The notes beneath the pieces are model-generated. The model searched no databases and was not told the DNA's origin. It worked only from the letters and a program-made list of their open reading frames with translations. Shown one piece after another: positions 2,493 through 63,577 of a stretch of 64,000 bases of DNA. The translations under genes were made by a program, and so were the position numbers. This stretch comes from Candidatus Melainabacteria bacterium (GTDB lineage: Bacteria; Cyanobacteriota; Vampirovibrionia; Obscuribacterales; Obscuribacteraceae), in assembly GCA_013288645.1 (NCBI GenBank), contig JABDBL010000012.1, forward strand, positions 1 through 64,000. The letters run 5' to 3'. Each line of letters starts with the position of its first letter. Position 1 is the stretch's first letter.

Positions 2493-3425
2493 TTAAGCAG
2501 ACATATTCAAATCTAGCGCCGGCAATGAAATGCCGTAGCGGTTGATGGTGCTTGCGCTGATATAATTGCCGCATCTTGCTGCCAGCTCTTTTTTATTAAA
2601 ATGATTAGTGGATCTTGTAAGCCAGCAGCGTCTCAATAATTCAGCCGATACAACCAATTGTGCTTGCCAGCCGATGCGCCTGATTACGCAAGCCATACCA
2701 GAAATTGATAAGCGATCACTGTCTTTTGTTAGCCAAAGAGCAGAATTTGTCTGAGCCCCGGCTAATTTGGCTCTCTCAATCAGCCATTGTTGCAAAGCCA
2801 ATACAGTCACTTTATTTAAGGGAACCTTGGCACCATTGCTTAGTTTGATATGAGCAAAAGTATCATTAGCACCAAAATCATCAACAGCAAAAAAAGATGG
2901 TGCCGACGTATCCGAAGCAGCATTTATCAAAACATCCGCTACATCTAAACGTGCACAATCGCCGATGCGCAAGCCGGTATAAAAAAGCACTAAAGCCAGA
3001 GCTTTGTCTCGTACCCAATCTTGTTCTTGTGCAGAACAAAGAAATTTTCTTTGTTCTTCTGCTGTCAATATTTTAGTAGACTTGTTATAACAATGCTCTC
3101 GTTTGAGCTGTGTTTCTTTTAAGCCCAAAAAGTGCGAAAAGCTATTGAGAGCATTAACATTGGCATTGATTGATTTTATTCCACCCTTTGCCTCTTTGAG
3201 AAAAATCAAATACATAGACATGGCTTCATTCATGCAGTCTAGATTATTCAAAGGCTGATCATCCAAGTTTGCATATTCTATGAATAAAAGAAATTGTTTA
3301 ACGCGAGAATGGTAAACCCTTTGAGTATTGGCTGTGATAGCCTGTTTTCCTAGCCATTCTTTATATGAGGCAAGATGAATATTGCTGGGGGTGATGGTTG
3401 TGCGAATTGTGACTGGGAATCTCAT
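2493..3425 (-). CDS. Degenerate tyrosine recombinase family protein (copy 1)
   Basis: 310 residues with an N-terminal SAM-like core-binding region (about 20-110) and a catalytic-type domain (about 130-305). The first catalytic arginine is present in TGLRIGD (about residue 152). A lysine in NGAKVPL fits the beta-hairpin lysine, LLRRCW supplies the second arginine, and INRYG fits the nucleophile tyrosine. The usual box II histidine is replaced by glutamate, and the box III GH by GN. Activity is therefore uncertain. It lies downstream of a TPR gene, separated by a 17-bp tandem repeat. A paralogous pair lies at 38.5-40.0 kb. The DNA site recombined, if any, is unknown. Confidence 0.75.
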   Translation of the reverse strand: MRFPVTIRTTITPSNIHLASYKEWLGKQAITANTQRVYHSRVKQFLLFIEYANLDDQPLNNLDCMNEAMSMYLIFLKEAKGGIKSINANVNALNSFSHFLGLKETQLKREHCYNKSTKILTAEEQRKFLCSAQEQDWVRDKALALVLFYTGLRIGDCARLDVADVLINAASDTSAPSFFAVDDFGANDTFAHIKLSNGAKVPLNKVTVLALQQWLIERAKLAGAQTNSALWLTKDSDRLSISGMACVIRRIGWQAQLVVSAELLRRCWLTRSTNHFNKKELAARCGNYISASTINRYGISLPALDLNMSA

Positions 3426-3431
3426 AAATAG

Positions 3432-3601
3432 TCTTGTCTCTTGCTGAATTTTGTTTCTTGCTAAATCTCGTTTCTTACTGAGTTTTGTCTCTGGCTAAGT
3501 CTTGTCTCTTGCCGAATCTTGTCTCTTGCTAAGTCTTATCTCTGGCTAAGTCTTGTTTCTCACTCGGTCTTGTCTCTCGCTAAATCTTATCTCTCACCAG
3601 C
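3432..3601. repeat. 17-bp imperfect tandem repeat, ten units
   Basis: Ten consecutive 17-base units of the form TCTTGTCTCTTGCTAAG fill the gap between the TPR gene and the recombinase gene. The unit length is not a multiple of three and the repeat is outside both genes. The homologous gap in the second module (39400-39411) is only 12 bases and has no repeat, so the array arose or expanded only in this copy. Confidence 0.9.
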
Positions 3602-54649: not shown

Positions 54650-57600
54650 TTAGGCTGCTAATTCCCCGGTGAGGAACATTTTGCAATAGCGTTCAGCGTT
54701 TGCTTTTAAATCATTCTCTGCTAATTCACGCGCTGCCCGTGTAGGCAATGCAATAGAAATTATTTTGCAGCCACCAAATCTATCGTACAGCTTTAGATTA
54801 CTAGAAGTGGCATTAACATCCCATTCTGCAACCTTTATCCTCTTGTTACCTTCTCTTAATTCTAGTTTGATACGCACGCTGTCTTTGCCTGAGCCTAAAT
54901 CGCTTTGGCTGATTATTCGTTTTTCCATTGTGGCAAGAGCCTTATTGACTGTTTCTTCGTCTTTAATGTTTATATCTAAGTTAGCAATTGGGCTAACCAA
55001 ACTCATATTCTTTACTGATGATTCGGCCAATTCATCATCATCTTCTTCTTCGTATTCTTCATAGGTAGCGCTCTTTGGTATTTGCAGCAATTGCCCTTCT
55101 TTAAGTTGTGCTATCGGATTACCTGTCTTATCAACACGCACACTTAAGCCATTGAGCAAAGCAATATCAGCCCACATATTTTCGTCACGCACATCAATGT
55201 GACTAGCTGCAATTGATTTAAGTGTGTCTCCTGCTCTGCAGGTGTAGGCAGAGAAATCTCTATTAGCAATCTTATTGCCTTGAGCATATAAAACTAGGGC
55301 ACTCATTTCTTTTAAAACGTGTATTTTGTATCTCAAAATTTCGGAGCGATGGGGTAACAATATTTGATTTGTCTCTGGCTTAATTGCGCCAATCTCTTCT
55401 AGGCTTTCATTGCCCTTGAGAGGTTTAATATTCTTTGTGTGAACATTTATTGTATAAAGCAAAGGAGCAAGTCTTGGGTCTTTGAGTACGAAGCGAGCAA
55501 TATTTTCTAGAGTATCATCTGCTCTAATTGCGCAAGGCTGTCGTTTTTGCTTACCAAATAGATCTGTAAACAAATCAGCCCACATTCTCCTTGCCGTCAG
55601 ATCATCAACTTTTTGGTTTTTAAGATCATTGATCAGCACCGTTATATTTTCTATAATGCTCAGTCCAATATTGGCCGATTTTTTAGGTGCATTAACAACG
55701 GCACTGTTTTGTGACCGCCTGGTTTCAATTACTGGTCTGTCGATATAATCATCATCGTCGTCTAAATCATTATTTTCTACAGAATCATAATCTATTTCTG
55801 GACGCCCGGTTGCATCATCATCCGCTTGGTCCCCTTTCTTAGTGTCGATTATGTGCACAGTGGGCAAAGCCGTCACCAATGACTTAATGTCTGTAGCGTT
55901 AGGATCGTGTGTACCGGGCACTGGATTGGTGGTGGTACCTGTGGTGCCAGTGCCAGTGGTGCCTGTGGTTGTTGTACCTGTTGTTGTACCGGGCGTTGTT
56001 GTGCCAGCGGTTCCCGTTTGACCAGTAGTTGTAGCCCCGGCCGTTGCTGTGATTATTATTCCTGTATTAGTAACATTGCCGGTTTGTGGAACAGGCAATG
56101 TTATTTCAGTGCTGCCGTCAATTATGCTTCCACCTTTTGTTGTTACTACTAGTGGCATGCCTATGCCAGCGCTACCGGTGCCTTCAGTAGGACCGGTTGA
56201 GCCCCTCTTGCCACTCTGTCCAGGCACCAATCCTTCTGTTAGTGCCGATGCGCCGGAACCTTTTACAATTGCTTTGCCTGTTTCATCTAGTTTACTAATA
56301 GAGGCAGCTTGCCCTTGTTGTAGCAGTCCTTGTAGGGCTTGTGCAATACCTTGCGAAGTTGTTGCATTGGACACCATTTGTCCTTCTTTTATACTTTGCC
56401 CATTAATACCAAGATTGGCTGTGGCAGAGTTAGCCGCAGCAAGATTAGTTGTAGAAGGATTGTAAATGGCACCAGATTCTTTCACAGAGAGTAGTCCAAT
56501 ATTGTCGGCAATTGATTTGCCTGTTGCATCCACAATTTGCATACCAGGAGGATAACCAATCGCGTTAGGTGATAATGGCGATGAACCTGCTACTAGTCCC
56601 AAATTATTTTCTCTAGATAAATCTCTAGATAAACTGGTATTCTTCTGCATTGCATCTATCATTTGATTTGCCGACAGAAGATTATTAGCAGCAATATTGG
56701 GGTTTGATGCATCCGCCAATTGTGCAACGGTGAGTGGTGTTGTTACATCTGCGCCAGGCGTTCCAAATGCGACACCGCGAGCAGTTTTTGTTGTAGCTGT
56801 TTCTTCTGCAAGCAATTGCGCGCCTGAAGGTGTTCCCTCAGTCACTGCACCCACAGCATGCCTACTTAATGGTGCCGCATCAGTTGCTGGGACCGATGCT
56901 TGTCTATTTAATTGTGCCACCTCACTTGGTGCTACGGCTGGATTGCCTGTCGAAGCTATCTTTTCAGGAGCAGGAGTGGACTGTCTTTTGTCTGTTTCGA
57001 CTAAGTGAACGTCGCCGCTTTGTGATCCAGAAACACCGGGCTTATTTGTTTGGGCGTATTGTTCCGGGGCTGGATGTTGAGATATTTGTGTTTGCTCTGC
57101 TGCCACCTTAGTTTCAGGCGATTGAATATCTCGGGTAGCTGACGCCGGAGCCGTATCTCTGTTAACCTGCGCAACAGGATTATTGCTTCGGAAATCCGCG
57201 AGAGGCTTTTGATCAGGAGGGATTGAAGCAAGTTTGGTTTCAGGTAATTTAGTATCTTGGATGGCTGGTGTAGAGGAATCCTTATTAACCTGCGCGCCGG
57301 GTGTAGCGGTGGCAGAGTGGGCGCGACGTTGTTCATTAGGAGGAGCAGAAGCAAGTTTGGTTTCAGGTAAATTAGTATCTTGGATGGCTGGTGTAGAGGA
57401 ATCCTTATTAACCTGCGCGTCGGGTATAGCGGCGGCGGAGTGGGCGCGACGTTGTTCATTAGGAGGAGCAGAAGCAAGTTTGGTTTCAGGTAAATTAGTA
57501 TCTTGGATGGCTGGTGTAGAGGAATCCTTATTAACCTGCGCGTCGGGTATAGCGGCGGCGGAGTGGGCGCGACGTTGTTCATTAGGAGGAGCAGAAGCAA

Positions 57601-58918
57601 GTTTGGTTTCAGGTAAATTAGTATCTTGGATGGCTGGTGTAGAGGAATCCTTATTAACCTGCGCGCCGGGTGTAGCGGTGGCAGAGTGGGCGCGACGTTG
57701 TTCATCAGGAGGAGCAGAAGCAAGTTTGGTTTCAGGTAGTTTAGTATCTTGGGTGGCTTGTATAGAGGAATCTTTGTTAACCTGCGCGCCGGGTGTAGCG
57801 GTGGCGGACGGGGCGCGACGTTGTTCATCAGGAGGAGCAGAAGCAAGTTTGGTTTCAGGTAAATTAGTATCTTGGATGGCTGGTGTAGAGGAATCCTTAT
57901 TAACCTGCGCGCCGGGTGTAGCGGTGGCAGAGTGGGCGCGACGTTGTTCATCAGGAGGAGCAGAAGCAAGTTTGGTTTCAGGTAGTTTAGTATCTTGGGT
58001 GGCTTGTATAGAGGAATCTTTGTTAACCTGCGCGCCGGGTGTAGCGGTGGCGGACGGGGCGCGACGTTGTTCATCAGGAGGAGCAGAAGCTAGTTTGGTT
58101 TCAGGTAATTTAGTATCTTGAGCTGGGGAAGAGAGAGTCCCATCCTTCTTGACTGGCGTGTCTGGTGTATTGGTGGTGGAAGGAGCGACGGGTTGTGAAT
58201 CAGAGGCAACGGTAGCGATTTTGTCCTTGGGCAATTGAGGATCTTGGGTGGAGGTAGAGATTTTGTCCTTGGGCAATTGAGGATCTTGGGTGGAGGTAGA
58301 GATTTTGTCCTCAGGCAGTTGAAGATCTCGAGCAGTGGTAGGGATTTTATCTTCGGGCAATTGAGGATCTTGGGTAGCAGTAGAGATCTTGTCCTCAGGC
58401 AATCGAGGATCTCGAACGGAGGTAGAGATTTTGCCCTCAGGCAATTGAGGATCTCGGTCGGCGGTAGAGACTTTGTCCTCAGATAATTTGCGATCTTGTG
58501 AAGACGAAGTTTCCGTTTCGTCTGCGGAATTCGAGATATCGTCTTTCTCTGCAAAGATGTCGGTAGATTCTGAACCGTTCTCCGAAGTCCCGCCATCAAC
58601 TGATGAAAGATTTACGCCAGCTTCGTTGTACTCGTCCGAGGGCAACGAGTTTGTTTCTCCAGTTGCGTCAGCCATAAAAGGATCGCTTTCATCTGAATTA
58701 GCTAATCCAGAGAGACTTATACCAGGTAGGTATTGTTTGTACTCGTTGTACAAGCCATTGCATGATTCTGCCATTTGATTAGCCTGCTGAGGGCTAAATC
58801 CCATACATTGAAACAAGGCGCGCTCAGCAAACAAAGCTGCGTCGCTATTTGGTTGAGGTGTTGGAGTGCTTACGTCACTGCCCGCTGAGGGCACTAATGA
58901 GGGATCTTCTCCCGGCAT
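54650..58918 (-). CDS. Giant repeat protein with LysM-like C-terminal region
   Basis: 1422 residues, the longest gene here. Order: an N-terminal region with a possible helical motif (ERALFQCMGFSPQQANQMAE); seven 14-residue repeats (like DPQLPEDKISTSTQ, about 140-237); eight 41-residue repeats (KLPETKLASAPPDEQRRA and on, about 263-590); a long disordered stretch, threonine/glycine-rich near 990; and from about 1080 a folded part with two LysM-like units (CAIRADDTLENIARFVL, CRAGDTLKSIAASH then LKEGQLLQIPKS) and an alpha/beta end. No signal peptide is seen. LysM units bind peptidoglycan or glycans. A long flexible stalk with a C-terminal binding head is likely. Confidence 0.85.
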   Translation of the reverse strand: MPGEDPSLVPSAGSDVSTPTPQPNSDAALFAERALFQCMGFSPQQANQMAESCNGLYNEYKQYLPGISLSGLANSDESDPFMADATGETNSLPSDEYNEAGVNLSSVDGGTSENGSESTDIFAEKDDISNSADETETSSSQDRKLSEDKVSTADRDPQLPEGKISTSVRDPRLPEDKISTATQDPQLPEDKIPTTARDLQLPEDKISTSTQDPQLPKDKISTSTQDPQLPKDKIATVASDSQPVAPSTTNTPDTPVKKDGTLSSPAQDTKLPETKLASAPPDEQRRAPSATATPGAQVNKDSSIQATQDTKLPETKLASAPPDEQRRAHSATATPGAQVNKDSSTPAIQDTNLPETKLASAPPDEQRRAPSATATPGAQVNKDSSIQATQDTKLPETKLASAPPDEQRRAHSATATPGAQVNKDSSTPAIQDTNLPETKLASAPPNEQRRAHSAAAIPDAQVNKDSSTPAIQDTNLPETKLASAPPNEQRRAHSAAAIPDAQVNKDSSTPAIQDTNLPETKLASAPPNEQRRAHSATATPGAQVNKDSSTPAIQDTKLPETKLASIPPDQKPLADFRSNNPVAQVNRDTAPASATRDIQSPETKVAAEQTQISQHPAPEQYAQTNKPGVSGSQSGDVHLVETDKRQSTPAPEKIASTGNPAVAPSEVAQLNRQASVPATDAAPLSRHAVGAVTEGTPSGAQLLAEETATTKTARGVAFGTPGADVTTPLTVAQLADASNPNIAANNLLSANQMIDAMQKNTSLSRDLSRENNLGLVAGSSPLSPNAIGYPPGMQIVDATGKSIADNIGLLSVKESGAIYNPSTTNLAAANSATANLGINGQSIKEGQMVSNATTSQGIAQALQGLLQQGQAASISKLDETGKAIVKGSGASALTEGLVPGQSGKRGSTGPTEGTGSAGIGMPLVVTTKGGSIIDGSTEITLPVPQTGNVTNTGIIITATAGATTTGQTGTAGTTTPGTTTGTTTTGTTGTGTTGTTTNPVPGTHDPNATDIKSLVTALPTVHIIDTKKGDQADDDATGRPEIDYDSVENNDLDDDDDYIDRPVIETRRSQNSAVVNAPKKSANIGLSIIENITVLINDLKNQKVDDLTARRMWADLFTDLFGKQKRQPCAIRADDTLENIARFVLKDPRLAPLLYTINVHTKNIKPLKGNESLEEIGAIKPETNQILLPHRSEILRYKIHVLKEMSALVLYAQGNKIANRDFSAYTCRAGDTLKSIAASHIDVRDENMWADIALLNGLSVRVDKTGNPIAQLKEGQLLQIPKSATYEEYEEEDDDELAESSVKNMSLVSPIANLDINIKDEETVNKALATMEKRIISQSDLGSGKDSVRIKLELREGNKRIKVAEWDVNATSSNLKLYDRFGGCKIISIALPTRAARELAENDLKANAERYCKMFLTGELAA
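57229..58130 (-). repeat. 123-bp (41-codon) tandem repeats in the giant gene
   Basis: Units recur every 123 bases (the GGTTTCAGGTA landmark lies at steps of 123), with alternating variants (HSATA/PSATA, STPAIQ/SIQATQ), implying recent homogenisation. The repeats keep all frames open, producing long spurious antisense and shifted ORFs. Confidence 0.9.
58206..58499 (-). repeat. 42-bp (14-codon) tandem repeats in the giant gene
   Basis: About seven units of the type QLPEDKISTSTQDP, lying N-terminal to the 41-codon repeats. A shared LP-E-K core suggests the 41-codon unit derived from the shorter one. Confidence 0.85.
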
Positions 58919-59665: not shown

Positions 59666-60292
59666 ATGCGTTCATGCTACCAGAGCCTTGTCTCGCTCGC
59701 CGCTCTCGTCCTCCTGGCGCTGCTCCCTGCTGCCGATGCGATTGCGCAACAGACCGCCACCAAAGCCAAAACCGACAAGCCGACAACCACCGTCAACCAG
59801 GATTCCTCCCTGACCATTCTTTACTCGAAGTACGCAAGTTGCACGGAAGATATTAGCCCCACCACGGTGCCCCTCGCTCAGGCGGCCATTGACGTGTCCA
59901 CCATTGGAGTTACCATCTCGGAACTCTGGACACCCAACGGCTACACGGACCTTCAGCGCCTCGTCGGCAGACGCGATGCTGATGACAAGCTCCGCGACAA
60001 GGCAATCATCGTCGCTCGCCGCTTCCGCGGTGAAGACGGAAAGGCCGACATTTGGCCGCTGGACCCCGCGCAGAAGTTCCGGATCATCGAAGGGGTCAGG
60101 AACGAAACGACCGGCGATATCCAACCACCGACCCCAGAGCAAGTTCGGAAAGAGGTGCTCGCGTATCTGGAGGCTACGAATACGCCCCCGCCCGGATCGG
60201 TGGCGTGGGTAAAAGCTGAAGCCGAGCGTCGCGAGATGCTCGCCCAGTCGGCCTCGAAGCCCAACAACGTGAAAGTTACCACGAACAAGTGA
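59666..60292 (+). CDS. Exported protein of GC-rich island, 208 aa
   Basis: N-terminal signal peptide: basic start, hydrophobic stretch LVSLAALVLLALLPAADAIA, with a likely cleavage after AIA-QQ near residue 27. Mature part of about 180 residues, helical, no recognised domain (YSKYASCTEDISP, TISELWTPNGYTDLQRLVGR). Probably periplasmic. Three hairpins follow, two with T-tracts nearby. GC content contrasts sharply with the neighbours. Confidence 0.7.
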   Translation: MRSCYQSLVSLAALVLLALLPAADAIAQQTATKAKTDKPTTTVNQDSSLTILYSKYASCTEDISPTTVPLAQAAIDVSTIGVTISELWTPNGYTDLQRLVGRRDADDKLRDKAIIVARRFRGEDGKADIWPLDPAQKFRIIEGVRNETTGDIQPPTPEQVRKEVLAYLEATNTPPPGSVAWVKAEAERREMLAQSASKPNNVKVTTNK

Positions 60293-60296
60293 GATA

Positions 60297-60325
60297 GGAG
60301 ATAGGTGCCGCCGACACCTATCTCC
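60297..60325 (+). terminator. First hairpin after the exported-protein gene
   Basis: GGAGATAGGTG-ccgccga-CACCTATCTCC, starting four bases after the stop codon; no T-run of its own. Confidence 0.55.
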
Positions 60326-60327
60326 CC

Positions 60328-60392
60328 GGAAAGACCAATACCCCCTGTGTCGCTCCGCCAGGGGATCCATTGGTCTTTCCGTCCTTTTTTTT
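60328..60392 (+). terminator. Main terminator of the 59.3-60.5 kb island
   Basis: GGAAAGACCAAT and ATTGGTCTTTCC enclose an inner hairpin (CCCCTG/CAGGGG); GTCC and eight T follow. A third hairpin AGAGGATCG/CGATCCTCT (60445-60490) with a T-rich tail lies just downstream. Confidence 0.85.
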
Positions 60393-60682
60393 GCACACAT
60401 TCACAGTGAACAACGGAAACAGGAGGCAACGCTCTGCCTCCTGCAGAGGATCGGTGTCCCTGAAGTTCAAGCAGGGTACATCGATCCTCTGTGTTTGAAA
60501 CCTTTGCCTCTTCTTTTTTTCTTTTTGCGATTTATTTCCATTCAACCCATCTATCAAATGTAGGGGTAAGCTTGGCCAGCACTTCATCCATAATTGCTAC
60601 TGGAACAGTCTCAAGCTTCTGTGTCCCAAAGATATCAAAATCAAGGCTGCGCGGCTGATCGCAGCAAGTAACCCCAATAGTT

Positions 60683-61207
60683 TTAAGCGGTTAGACCGGT
60701 TATACTTTGTAACAGTCGACCTACTTCTTGAGCATTTTTGAGCAGTATGTTCTTGAAATAAACCTCGATTGATTGGGGAGATAGAAGTCGATCGTTTAAA
60801 GACAAAGCGACTGAACCACCTCTTCTTATGCCAGAATTACTGCGTAATATAAGCTTGCGCAAGTACGCATTGCCATTGCTATCGGTACCAAACATAGAAT
60901 ACATCCATGCTGGTTGTTTATCTAGTGCATAATCCAGCGACGCAGCTAGACTTCCTCTTTCACCCTCTAATAATGGCATGCAGATGGTATTCTCTTGTAG
61001 GTTCTGGGGCAGGGCTTTTAGAAAAATTATTGCCAAGGCTTTAACGCCAGGTGTCCATTGAAATGAGCCCGCATTCTTATAAGCGCCAGAGTTTTTTCCG
61101 CGGACGGACATAATCTTAATAGTGCTGGGATGTCCTGTGAACATAGTTCGTTCCAGTTCGCAAGAGCCTGCCCACGATTTTTGGAACCAAAGAATTAATT
61201 CGGTCAT
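60683..61207 (-). CDS. Unknown protein, short paralogue
   Basis: 174 residues from ATG 61207, the start matching its paralogue (MTELILWF against MSELILWF); an ATG at 61264 would add 19 residues. The shared domain contains CELERTMF, RGKNSGAYKNAGSFQWTPG, MPLLEGERGSLAASLDYALD, KQPAWMYSMFGTDSNGNAYLRK. No known family recognised. Divergent from the methyltransferase gene, and it lacks the C-terminal extension of the paralogue at 62273. Confidence 0.65.
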   Translation of the reverse strand: MTELILWFQKSWAGSCELERTMFTGHPSTIKIMSVRGKNSGAYKNAGSFQWTPGVKALAIIFLKALPQNLQENTICMPLLEGERGSLAASLDYALDKQPAWMYSMFGTDSNGNAYLRKLILRSNSGIRRGGSVALSLNDRLLSPQSIEVYFKNILLKNAQEVGRLLQSITGLTA

Positions 61208-61378
61208 AAGCTTAGTGTGATCTTTGGGATTGATATTCAGATATAACCTTACGATTTCATTCAAAGCGATCTACTTTGAATTTAAAGTTGACTATAATTT
61301 GGGATATTTATTTTGTCAGCTCTTCGATGTTCAAGGCAGGATTCATGGAAGGATTCAAAAATTGGTTTTTAGAGAAAT

Positions 61379-62134
61379 ATGAAAGCCGACTATTCAAAAA
61401 TCGCCCACACGTATGATGCAGCCCATCCTGCTTCTCAGATGGCAATAGAAAGAGTACTGAGCTTTCTGGAGGCTAAGGTAGGGCGCAATCCAAAATTGAA
61501 GTTTCTTGATTTAGGCTGCGGTACGGGACGATTTGCCATACCAATCGCTAAAAAATTTAATTACTGCATCACCGGAGCGGACAAATCGGCTGCTATGCTT
61601 GACAAGGCAAGATCTAAAGATGGCGCCGAAAAGGTAACCTGGGATTTGCAAAATGCAACTGCTCTTTCTTATGAGGACAATCAGTTTGATGTTGTATTTA
61701 TGAGCCATCTGCTCCACCATTTTGATCAACCTGAGCTGGTTATAAAAGAATGTCATCGTGTGTTGGTGTCAGGTGGATTGCTTCTTAATCGTTATGGAGC
61801 TATAGAAGACGTTCTTGAAGATCCCGAACACAAGTTCTTCCCAGAAATAAGAGATATAGATCGCAAGCGTACCCCTACAAAAAAGCAGATGAAGGACTGG
61901 TTTAAGCAAACTGGTTTTGAGGCAATTAGCTCGCAGAGCCTTGAGCAACGAACATTTGCTTGCACTGGTGAGCGAGTGGCCGCAATAGAGAAGCGCTACA
62001 TATCAGCACTGTGGCTCATTAGTGATCCCGCCTTTTCTAAAGGCTTGCAAGATCTAAAAAAATACATCTCTTTAAACCCTGATGACAAATGGTTATCGAT
62101 ATGCAAAATTACATTTACGCACGGAGTAAAATAA
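61379..62134 (+). CDS. Class I SAM-dependent methyltransferase
   Basis: 251 residues. Motif I LDLGCGTGRFAIPI (about 43-56), acidic residue of motif II in TGADKSAAML, motif IV region NQFDVVFMSHLLHHFD and post-I pattern VLVSGGLLLNRYG place it in the Methyltransf_11/25 group. Substrate unknown. It lies between two paralogous genes of unknown function, so the three may belong together. Confidence 0.85.
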   Translation: MKADYSKIAHTYDAAHPASQMAIERVLSFLEAKVGRNPKLKFLDLGCGTGRFAIPIAKKFNYCITGADKSAAMLDKARSKDGAEKVTWDLQNATALSYEDNQFDVVFMSHLLHHFDQPELVIKECHRVLVSGGLLLNRYGAIEDVLEDPEHKFFPEIRDIDRKRTPTKKQMKDWFKQTGFEAISSQSLEQRTFACTGERVAAIEKRYISALWLISDPAFSKGLQDLKKYISLNPDDKWLSICKITFTHGVK

Positions 62135-62272
62135 CTTGTAAGTAAGCAGCAGTTTGAGCGGCCTCTTAATAATGTAAAAACCCCACTTATTAGCAAAATA
62201 TTATGGTGTCAAAGTTGCACTTTTCTCTTTCCCATCTAATATATTATCAAAATCGCAAATTGAGGAAGAGGC

Positions 62273-63577
62273 GTGTCGGAACTCATTCTCTGGTTTTCTA
62301 GGTCTCCAGAACATATAGAACTTGAGCGCACGGTTTATGTCGATCATTACGGCGCAGAAACTGTAGCCATTAGAGGCAAGAATAGTGGTGCTTATAAGGG
62401 TGCAGGGGTTTTTCAGTGGACCCCTGGAGTACGAGCTCTTACTGTGGTGTTTGTTGAAGCGTTGGTTCGCCATCTAAAACAGATTTCTACATTTTTACCG
62501 CTGCTAGAAGGCGAGAAAGGTAGCCTAGCATTTTCTTTACACTATGCCTTAGCAAAACAGCCCGCCTGGTTATTTGAAATGTTTGGAAGCGATGAAGATG
62601 GAAATGCCAACCTGCGGAAAATTCTTTTTCGCAGCAGCCTTGGCACCAACAAAGTCGCAGTCTCACTAAATGAAGAGGCATTGTCAGCAAGTTCAGTGAA
62701 GGTTTACATAGACCGTACTGAACTTAGGAGCGTGGAGGCGCTTGAACGTTTGCTATATGAATTATTAGGAGACGAAGCATCTGAAGCACAAAAGGATATT
62801 CCTCGTGCATGGGTTTTACTACGTTCCAAACATTCATCCAGTTCGCAAAAACATGATTCACAGCCAGCAGCCAAATCTATTTTTGAGCCGGACAATATCT
62901 ATCTTTTTGAGCAATTGCAGTACCCATCTAGCTCCACAGCAGATCGCCTAAGATGGGATCAGTTAGATGATCAACGACCCTCGTCCATCTTTGGTCGAGT
63001 CGTGCAAGCTAAGCATCTGTTTGAAGAGTTAACTTACCAAACTTGTGATGACCAGACGCGCAGTCAATTTGAGCAGTGGCTTGCCACCATGCAGCCGTAT
63101 CCAGATGCCGAATGGGGAATTGATACCGAAAGAGAAGGTCGACTCGTTCCAGGTTTTATAAGTTCGCTAAAAGGTCATAATAGGCAATTTACTCCCAATG
63201 GTTTCCATCGTACTTTTATTTGGCGCGATCGTTTAACTAAAGAATTAGTAGCAACTTTAACTCTAGGCAGAGACGATCGCGGCGTGAGTGAAAGCAATCA
63301 ACTCGATCGTGATGGAACAATCCTTGGAATAAATGTTCGTTGGGATTTAAGAAACCGTGGGATAGGACATTATTTAGTTGCTTGCATAAACAAGCATATT
63401 ATAGATTTCGTTAAACGCGATGGCAAATCGCGGTTAATCCATACTTCTAATTACAATTTCGGTGGTGTTCCTTGGCCGATGCTAAAAAAGATTGGCTACG
63501 AGAAAATTGCTTCGCTAGGTCCAGTTCAAACTGACTTTGGATTTATTCCAATTTGGTCGAAGACCTATTTAGCCTGA
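62273..63577 (+). CDS. Unknown domain fused to a GNAT-like C-terminal domain
   Basis: 434 residues, GTG start after GAGGAAGAGG. The first 170 or so residues match the protein at 60683-61207 (IELERTVYVD, RGKNSGAYKGAGVFQWTPG, LPLLEGEKGSLAFSLHYALA). A variable linker follows. The last 130 or so residues (TKELVATLTLGRDDRG, ILGINVRWDLRNRGIGHYLV, PWPMLKKIGYEKIA) look like an acetyl-CoA-binding GNAT fold, with RNRGIG as motif A. Probably an N-acyltransferase with a private recognition domain. The last 420 bases of the window (63578-64000) hold nothing recognised. Confidence 0.7.
   Translation: MSELILWFSRSPEHIELERTVYVDHYGAETVAIRGKNSGAYKGAGVFQWTPGVRALTVVFVEALVRHLKQISTFLPLLEGEKGSLAFSLHYALAKQPAWLFEMFGSDEDGNANLRKILFRSSLGTNKVAVSLNEEALSASSVKVYIDRTELRSVEALERLLYELLGDEASEAQKDIPRAWVLLRSKHSSSSQKHDSQPAAKSIFEPDNIYLFEQLQYPSSSTADRLRWDQLDDQRPSSIFGRVVQAKHLFEELTYQTCDDQTRSQFEQWLATMQPYPDAEWGIDTEREGRLVPGFISSLKGHNRQFTPNGFHRTFIWRDRLTKELVATLTLGRDDRGVSESNQLDRDGTILGINVRWDLRNRGIGHYLVACINKHIIDFVKRDGKSRLIHTSNYNFGGVPWPMLKKIGYEKIASLGPVQTDFGFIPIWSKTYLA

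Follow-up and report, generated by a model that had tools for sequence, protein, structure and literature searches.

An N-terminal domain with interchangeable C-terminal partners, met beside a methyltransferase gene in Melainabacteria: a candidate recognition front end

Near the end of the 64,000-nucleotide stretch of Candidatus Melainabacteria DNA analysed here (the window), two genes flanking a methyltransferase gene encode what a first-pass annotation had described as an unnamed domain shared by two proteins, alone in one and joined to an acyltransferase-like part in the other. It had read the three genes as a small system of methylation plus acylation with a common recognition module. The locus thus raises the question of what this domain is, and whether the methyltransferase and the acyltransferase-like part belong with it. 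The solo protein carries NSGAYKNAGSFQWTPG and PLLEGERGSLAASL and the 434-residue protein NSGAYKGAGVFQWTPG and PLLEGEKGSLAFSL, and the former aligned with residues 1-169 of the latter at 87 of 174 identical positions (~50%; BLASTP, E 2e-56 as a single comparison), which at the sequence level confirms both as copies of one domain, here called D (Table 1). A start of the solo gene at ATG 61207 would give 174 residues and agrees with the N-terminus of the family. The SAM methyltransferase proposed to lie between them is indeed there, scoring 86.6 bits against a Methyltransf_11 cut-off of 21.2 in Pfam, while UbiE-type models of NCBIfam scored far under their own cut-offs. It shares a strand with the fusion gene, across a gap of 138 bases, and since it lies on the plus strand between the two D genes, the solo gene points away from a unit made of the methyltransferase and D-GNAT genes; the intergenic stretch between them held no more promoter-like matches than its shuffles.

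Table 1. Features of the locus, in positions of the window.
Feature	Position	Strand	Details
Left copy of direct repeat	60282..60426		78% identity to the copy at 65020-65164 of the contig
Solo D gene	60683..61264	-	193 aa from TTG 61264
Intergenic, between the divergent solo D and methyltransferase genes	61265..61378		114 bases
Class-I SAM methyltransferase gene, UbiE-like	61379..62134	+	251 aa; Methyltransf_11 1.9e-24
D-GNAT fusion gene (GNAT probable)	62273..63577	+	434 aa, GTG start; D by BLASTP; FR47 below cut-off
Domain D of the fusion, residues 1-169	62273..62779	+	BLASTP against solo D, model
Segment best matched by FR47 in the GNAT-like C-terminus, residues 347-412	63311..63508	+	FR47, below curated cut-off

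As for the acyltransferase-like fusion, an extra C-terminus does follow D, and its identity as a GNAT is probable, on sequence matches just under the curated cut-offs. FR47 reached E 5.3e-4 and 20.4 bits against a curated Pfam cut-off of 22.1, and in a homologue of the fusion on a viral contig (L019; survey loci are numbered with L, genomes with G) Acetyltransf_1 reached E 0.009 and 16.7 bits against 20.7. The C-terminus also contains R-N-R-G-I-G, which we take to be the acetyl-CoA-binding motif. Its model was of low confidence, with pLDDT under 50 over most of that part, and Foldseek returned no significant match for it (E above 0.1 throughout); of the 50 matches listed, more than 30 were acetyltransferases by title or by presumed identity.

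The block formed by the two D genes and the methyltransferase gene is flanked by copies of a 145-base direct repeat, the right one past the end of the window, that occur nowhere else in the assembly and may mark the boundary of an inserted unit. A syntenic empty site was not found in G001, a genome of the same genus, and the 208-residue left neighbour had no match in seven relatives in a search run without a positive control. Some other copies of D lie among genes of mobile elements: the D-GNAT gene of L019 is beside phage integrase and terminase genes, and both D copies of G001 adjoin ParA/TraL-like genes, one of them in a region that also holds a MobA-type relaxase and an integrase. Two further genes of the surroundings were noted in passing. 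Just downstream of the window, at 64022-64684 of the contig, a GNAT gene has a C-terminus that matches Anticodon_3 (5.8e-14), the anticodon-binding domain of methionyl-tRNA ligase, which is an odd fusion, and at 54650-58918 the window encodes a 1422-residue protein in which a Pro/Thr-rich unit recurs internally in near-identical copies.

Our survey comprised 85 D ORFs in 76 loci, gene calls beyond the window being mechanical ORFs, and 77 of them entered the tree and the conservation analysis, the eight with fewer than 125 aligned residues being left out. D measures about 170 residues, and most of residues 21-190 of the solo protein were modelled at pLDDT above 85; AlphaFold2, given an alignment of 12 sequences, reached pLDDT 84.7 and pTM 0.82 for the solo protein, with residues 1-12 and 15-17 (counted from the TTG) as the low-confidence part. 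The model predicts three strands, a long helix, more short helices and a three-strand end followed by a last helix. R55, G56, F68, W70, D111, K116, W120, F125, G126, N143 and G150 are conserved alike in the 45 solo-type and the 32 fused rows. Solo copies are basic: their median pI is 9.2, compared with 7.0 for 277 other proteins of similar size. The window's own fused D has an acidic pI of 5.4, and for the GNAT-type rows the median is 7.0, close to neutrality.

The earlier statement that D has no named family was borne out in the libraries searched. The solo protein matched no Pfam and no NCBIfam family at E 1, none of the 77 D rows matched Pfam at E 0.001 (best 0.0081), PADLOC gave no family for the two D proteins of the window, PHROGs nothing significant for D (best 0.018) and profile searches of PDB sequences no match; a literature search by text, not by sequence, gave among the papers listed none that obviously describes the domain. 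The confident model of D likewise had no convincing fold match in PDB or BFVD. Candidate LCP, RNase-H-like, TAM/MBD and Prp folds were judged chance at a best Foldseek E of 0.16, the PDB candidates being weak by alignment as well (TM-score at most about 0.2, best Z 3.1; Foldseek, VIA-align), and the candidates in BFVD were discarded at a best E of 0.048 and TM of 0.16. Searches of PDB and BFVD that return no match do not prove the predicted fold to be new. A confident model that has no structural match makes D well worth solving by experiment.

The domain is rare among the relatives of the window's genome and common in one small phylum. The window's genome has three copies and G001 two, and these were the only carriers among 99 relatives (window's genome counted), none being found in the other 97; a wider sample of the class gave 2 of 289 genomes, and a sample of the phylum 1 of 292, that one being the window's own. 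Its main home is the small delta-like phylum of G448, where 30 of 45 genomes carry it, 11 of these 30 at one place only (the assemblies are incomplete) and seven of the 11 as a fusion to a domain called X. Six D loci in five genomes came out of a pattern scan across 84,980 species; with patterns as strict as those used, both counts are lower bounds. Three viral contigs also carry D, two of them apparently with the same region, and annotated plasmid and phage collections gave no match. On one viral contig, of 145 kb, a DUF5753 HTH regulator gene (L028:5976-6806) lies three ORFs from a solo D.

Across the survey D proved to be one family, found either by itself or as the N-terminal part of fusions, in which at least four unrelated kinds of C-terminus follow it. 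At least 90 residues follow D in 34 of the 85 ORFs, and D is N-terminal in all 34. By blastp the C-termini fall into ten unrelated groups: X in 21 ORFs, a group of four made of two GNAT-type pairs joined by one local match, the pair L071/L127 and seven singles. In L015 the C-terminus is nSTAND1 (9.6e-98) followed by FGE (5.3e-13; both Pfam), the one NTPase among the 34, and in L064 it is an RNA-cap-type methyltransferase (Methyltransf_15, PF09445, E 2.5e-21), the only D-methyltransferase fusion seen. The FGE part of the L015 gene (L015:3431-6979) seems to continue in another frame (ORF 3135-3530), by frameshift or assembly error. X spans some 350-430 residues, without a Pfam match and with a best PDB E of 0.011, to an unrelated short chain; a sequence impression that it is like the type-2 periplasmic binding proteins was given up when hhalign assigned MqnA-type proteins a probability of 0.3. 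The C-terminus of L113 was ruled out as X by hhalign, and a 'toroid' label for that of L059, an impression by eye, had no support from Pfam.

One assembly, G445, lets the exchange of C-termini be seen directly. Its loci L015 and L059 are each a divergent pair of a solo and a fused D gene, the layout of the window, and in L015 the fused gene is preceded by a further gene, which by eye resembles a phosphoribosyltransferase but has no Pfam match, just as the methyltransferase gene precedes the fused gene in the window. In the tree the D parts of the two fusions group as sisters (SH-aLRT 100). Their identity is 79% over residues 1-164, after which L015 continues into nSTAND1-FGE and L059 into a stretch of 355 residues unrelated to it. 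The C-terminus has thus been exchanged just behind D. The solo partners of the two loci are also sisters (SH-aLRT 95, 60% identity), and each fused D is divergent in sequence from its own solo D. Such cassettes with exchanged effectors in one assembly amount to a natural domain-swap experiment.

D genes cluster beyond chance: seven linked pairs within 3 kb were seen against 0.25 expected from copy number and genome size, or five when two pairs with broken or fragmentary copies are removed. The simplest null hypothesis for this clustering is tandem duplication, which explains some of it. In L015, L059 and L071, adjacent copies are only 33-34% identical, against 44-77% with copies elsewhere, and divergence as deep as this argues against recent duplication there. 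The pair of the window, the remaining one of the four full-length adjacent pairs compared, is 51% identical in this comparison and each other's best match one way only.

What surrounds D varies. Among 112 flanking genes (of 114 ORFs, two judged spurious or short being left out of the scan), four matched Methyltransf_11 and four Acetyltransf_1, against at most one each in 112 of the 388 genes at least three places away. Methyltransferases and GNATs are therefore in weak excess beside D in a neighbourhood that is not conserved, and the dedicated methylation-plus-acylation system of the first-pass annotation was not supported by this survey. The homologues of the window's D-GNAT gene have no adjoining methyltransferase gene, the neighbours being HAD in L019 and convergent conjugation-type genes in L009; elsewhere, a methyltransferase gene lies 14 bases upstream of D-X in L140, GNAT genes lie on both sides of D-X in L128, and one lies behind a solo D in L075. 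D genes are rarer in tight operons than other genes and are mostly solitary, with coupled flanks at 2 of 83 positions for solo D and 10 of 59 for fused D against 145 of 449 background pairs. Where a partner is coupled it is usually an enzyme, of the HAD, metallo-beta-lactamase-fold, isochorismatase-PNPOx, HD, GNAT or methyltransferase kind, the labels for HAD and for the L119 partner being given by eye or from the family table. With neighbours so varied and couplings so few, the methyltransferase of the window is best taken as one of many possible neighbours.

Some other associations were looked into. A Cys-rich protein, F1, adjoins six D-X loci but is usually divergent, and was dropped as a conserved operon partner. 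In the delta-like phylum, a LanM-type (L018:1212-4331) and a kinase-LanC-type (L016:10990-13359) lanthionine synthetase gene lie near D, with small candidate precursor genes close to them; a lantibiotic link of D was abandoned, as related loci are without such synthetase genes. A related regulator gene adjoins a solo D on the same strand in L016 (6544-7626), L069 (7205-8185) and L103 (1753-2826), and that of L016 has HTH_11 and WCX matches below the cut-off.

Our preferred reading, to which we give a probability of about 0.4, is that D is an unnamed, independently folding alpha/beta domain that acts at the N-terminus as a shared front end for recognition, behind which effectors can be swapped. 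The 'common recognition module' of the first-pass annotation fits, because D elsewhere sits alone or N-terminal to several unrelated domains. D would bring interchangeable C-terminal effectors, among them a GNAT, an nSTAND1-FGE NTPase, an RNA-cap-type methyltransferase and X, to a common kind of target, or gate them there, and a stand-alone D would be the same binding unit without an effector, one that either binds independently or pairs or competes with a fused copy linked to it. At the locus of the window, the solo D would be transcribed divergently from a unit making the methyltransferase and D-GNAT. We infer that D binds a ligand and that a solo copy may regulate or partner a fused one. 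The residues conserved in solo and fused D, together with the basic solo copies, point to an anionic ligand, which to judge by R55-G-K57, K116, N143, K/R147 and R148 may carry phosphate and is perhaps a nucleic acid. This step is a guess, because the window's fused D is acidic, and the pI values of the GNAT-type copies speak against nucleic acid there; an active site would account equally well for the conserved R, D, K, N and W. A recognition front end accommodates all the facts, namely a constant N-terminal D, varied C-termini, solo copies, pairs and single-D genomes. A constant domain that moves among unrelated enzymes is the mark of a target or a control step they have in common, and it thereby opens a way into many uncharacterised proteins together (85 ORFs with D in this survey). 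A bolder version is doubtful: that D is a new fold founding a modular effector family, with a constant front end and exchanged acetyltransferase, methyltransferase, STAND NTPase-FGE and X C-termini, carried by phages and conjugative elements from the delta-like phylum into Melainabacteria, with a role in conflict or signalling and, as a pairing rule of its own, a divergent, distant solo copy beside an armed one.

The main rival, in our view rather unlikely, is that D is a coupling adaptor of the EAD kind, docking on other copies of D so that solo and fused copies assemble and an NTPase core, for instance D-nSTAND1, gathers the effectors. Multi-copy families with solo and effector-fused members in one genome, linked solo/fused pairs and an nSTAND1 fusion with an FGE domain agree with it, as FGS effectors and STAND NTPases are both present in EAD systems in the published account (Kaur et al. 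2020; PMC7159879). The adjacent copies in L015, L059 and L071, however, are not closest relatives, the reverse of the trend which that account gives for EADs, and an NTPase is present in a single fused ORF. Obligatory docking of D on D fails in the 11 single-D genomes, incomplete as their assemblies are, and docking cannot be general where D-X is the sole copy.

It is quite unlikely that D is a small enzyme or small-molecule sensor, its fusions being bifunctional enzymes or ligand-gated effectors. The near invariance of R55, D111, K116, N143, W70 and W120, whether D is solo or fused, would suit such a role, as would the fact that over half of the family consists of solo genes standing on their own, and that coupled neighbours are small-molecule enzymes; yet D matched no enzyme by fold (Foldseek, VIA-align) or by sequence (Pfam, PDB), and we know of no nameable catalytic set that its conserved residues resemble. 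About equally improbable is a DNA-binding D, which would make most D proteins one-component regulators, LysR-like in D-X and enzyme- or STAND-linked in D-GNAT and D-nSTAND. Its constant N-terminal place, the basic solo copies and the solitary, sometimes divergent genes are in keeping with this, and the palindrome TTCNGAA occurs upstream of 17 of 50 D genes against 25 of 228 other genes. That palindrome, however, was picked post hoc after a k-mer screen, has varying flanks and positions and is absent from the intergenic stretch of the window; the D model matched no known DNA-binding fold (Foldseek, VIA-align), and a ligand-binding fold for X found no support in Pfam, PDB or hhalign. Least probable, and very much so, is a modification system dedicated to methylation plus acylation and made up of the three genes of the locus. 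The shared strand and short gap of the methyltransferase and D-GNAT genes, the recurrence of such neighbours in L140, L128 and L075 and the single fusion in L064 favour it, but the flank counts are low, the D-GNAT homologues adjoin other genes and most D proteins have neither partner.

Set against known systems, the front-end reading of D has partial parallels. The RiPP recognition element (RRE), a winged-helix fold that binds a leader peptide, is a recognition domain found alone or N-terminally fused to modification enzymes, and D resembles it in occurring in both ways. D is about twice as long, an RRE would not be expected in fusions with nSTAND1 and X, and lanthionine synthetase genes are near it in L016 and L018 only and absent from the related L105 and L017. 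One-component regulators of the LysR, MocR and STAND kinds combine a constant N-terminal domain with varied C-termini in solitary genes. D shares all three features, unlike them has many single-domain copies, and shows no recognised DNA-binding fold. The closest comparison is with the EADs of NTP-dependent conflict systems, which Kaur et al. (2020; PMC7159879) describe as small, non-enzymatic and interacting homotypically, with a core component (VMAP, iSTAND, Ubl or GAP1) bearing one copy, further copies on effector or signalling domains, usually enzymes, and copies in adjacent genes closest to each other; FGS, the formylglycine-enzyme effectors, occur there, as do STAND NTPases. Against that description D is larger, at ~170 residues, and has nearly invariant polar residues; it matches no enzyme fold, yet conserves R, D, K, N and W. 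Its NTPase-linked copy is rare (one D-nSTAND1-FGE among 34 fused ORFs), many genomes have one D, and in three of the four full-length pairs (L015, L059 and L071) adjacent copies are distant paralogues. Since adjacent copies are not nearest relatives, we have not filed D as an EAD, a class with which, on the same account, it has in common many copies per genome, alone or on changing effectors (here GNAT, Methyltransf_15 and nSTAND1-FGE C-termini), an NTPase-linked copy, seen once, and an FGE/FGS domain.
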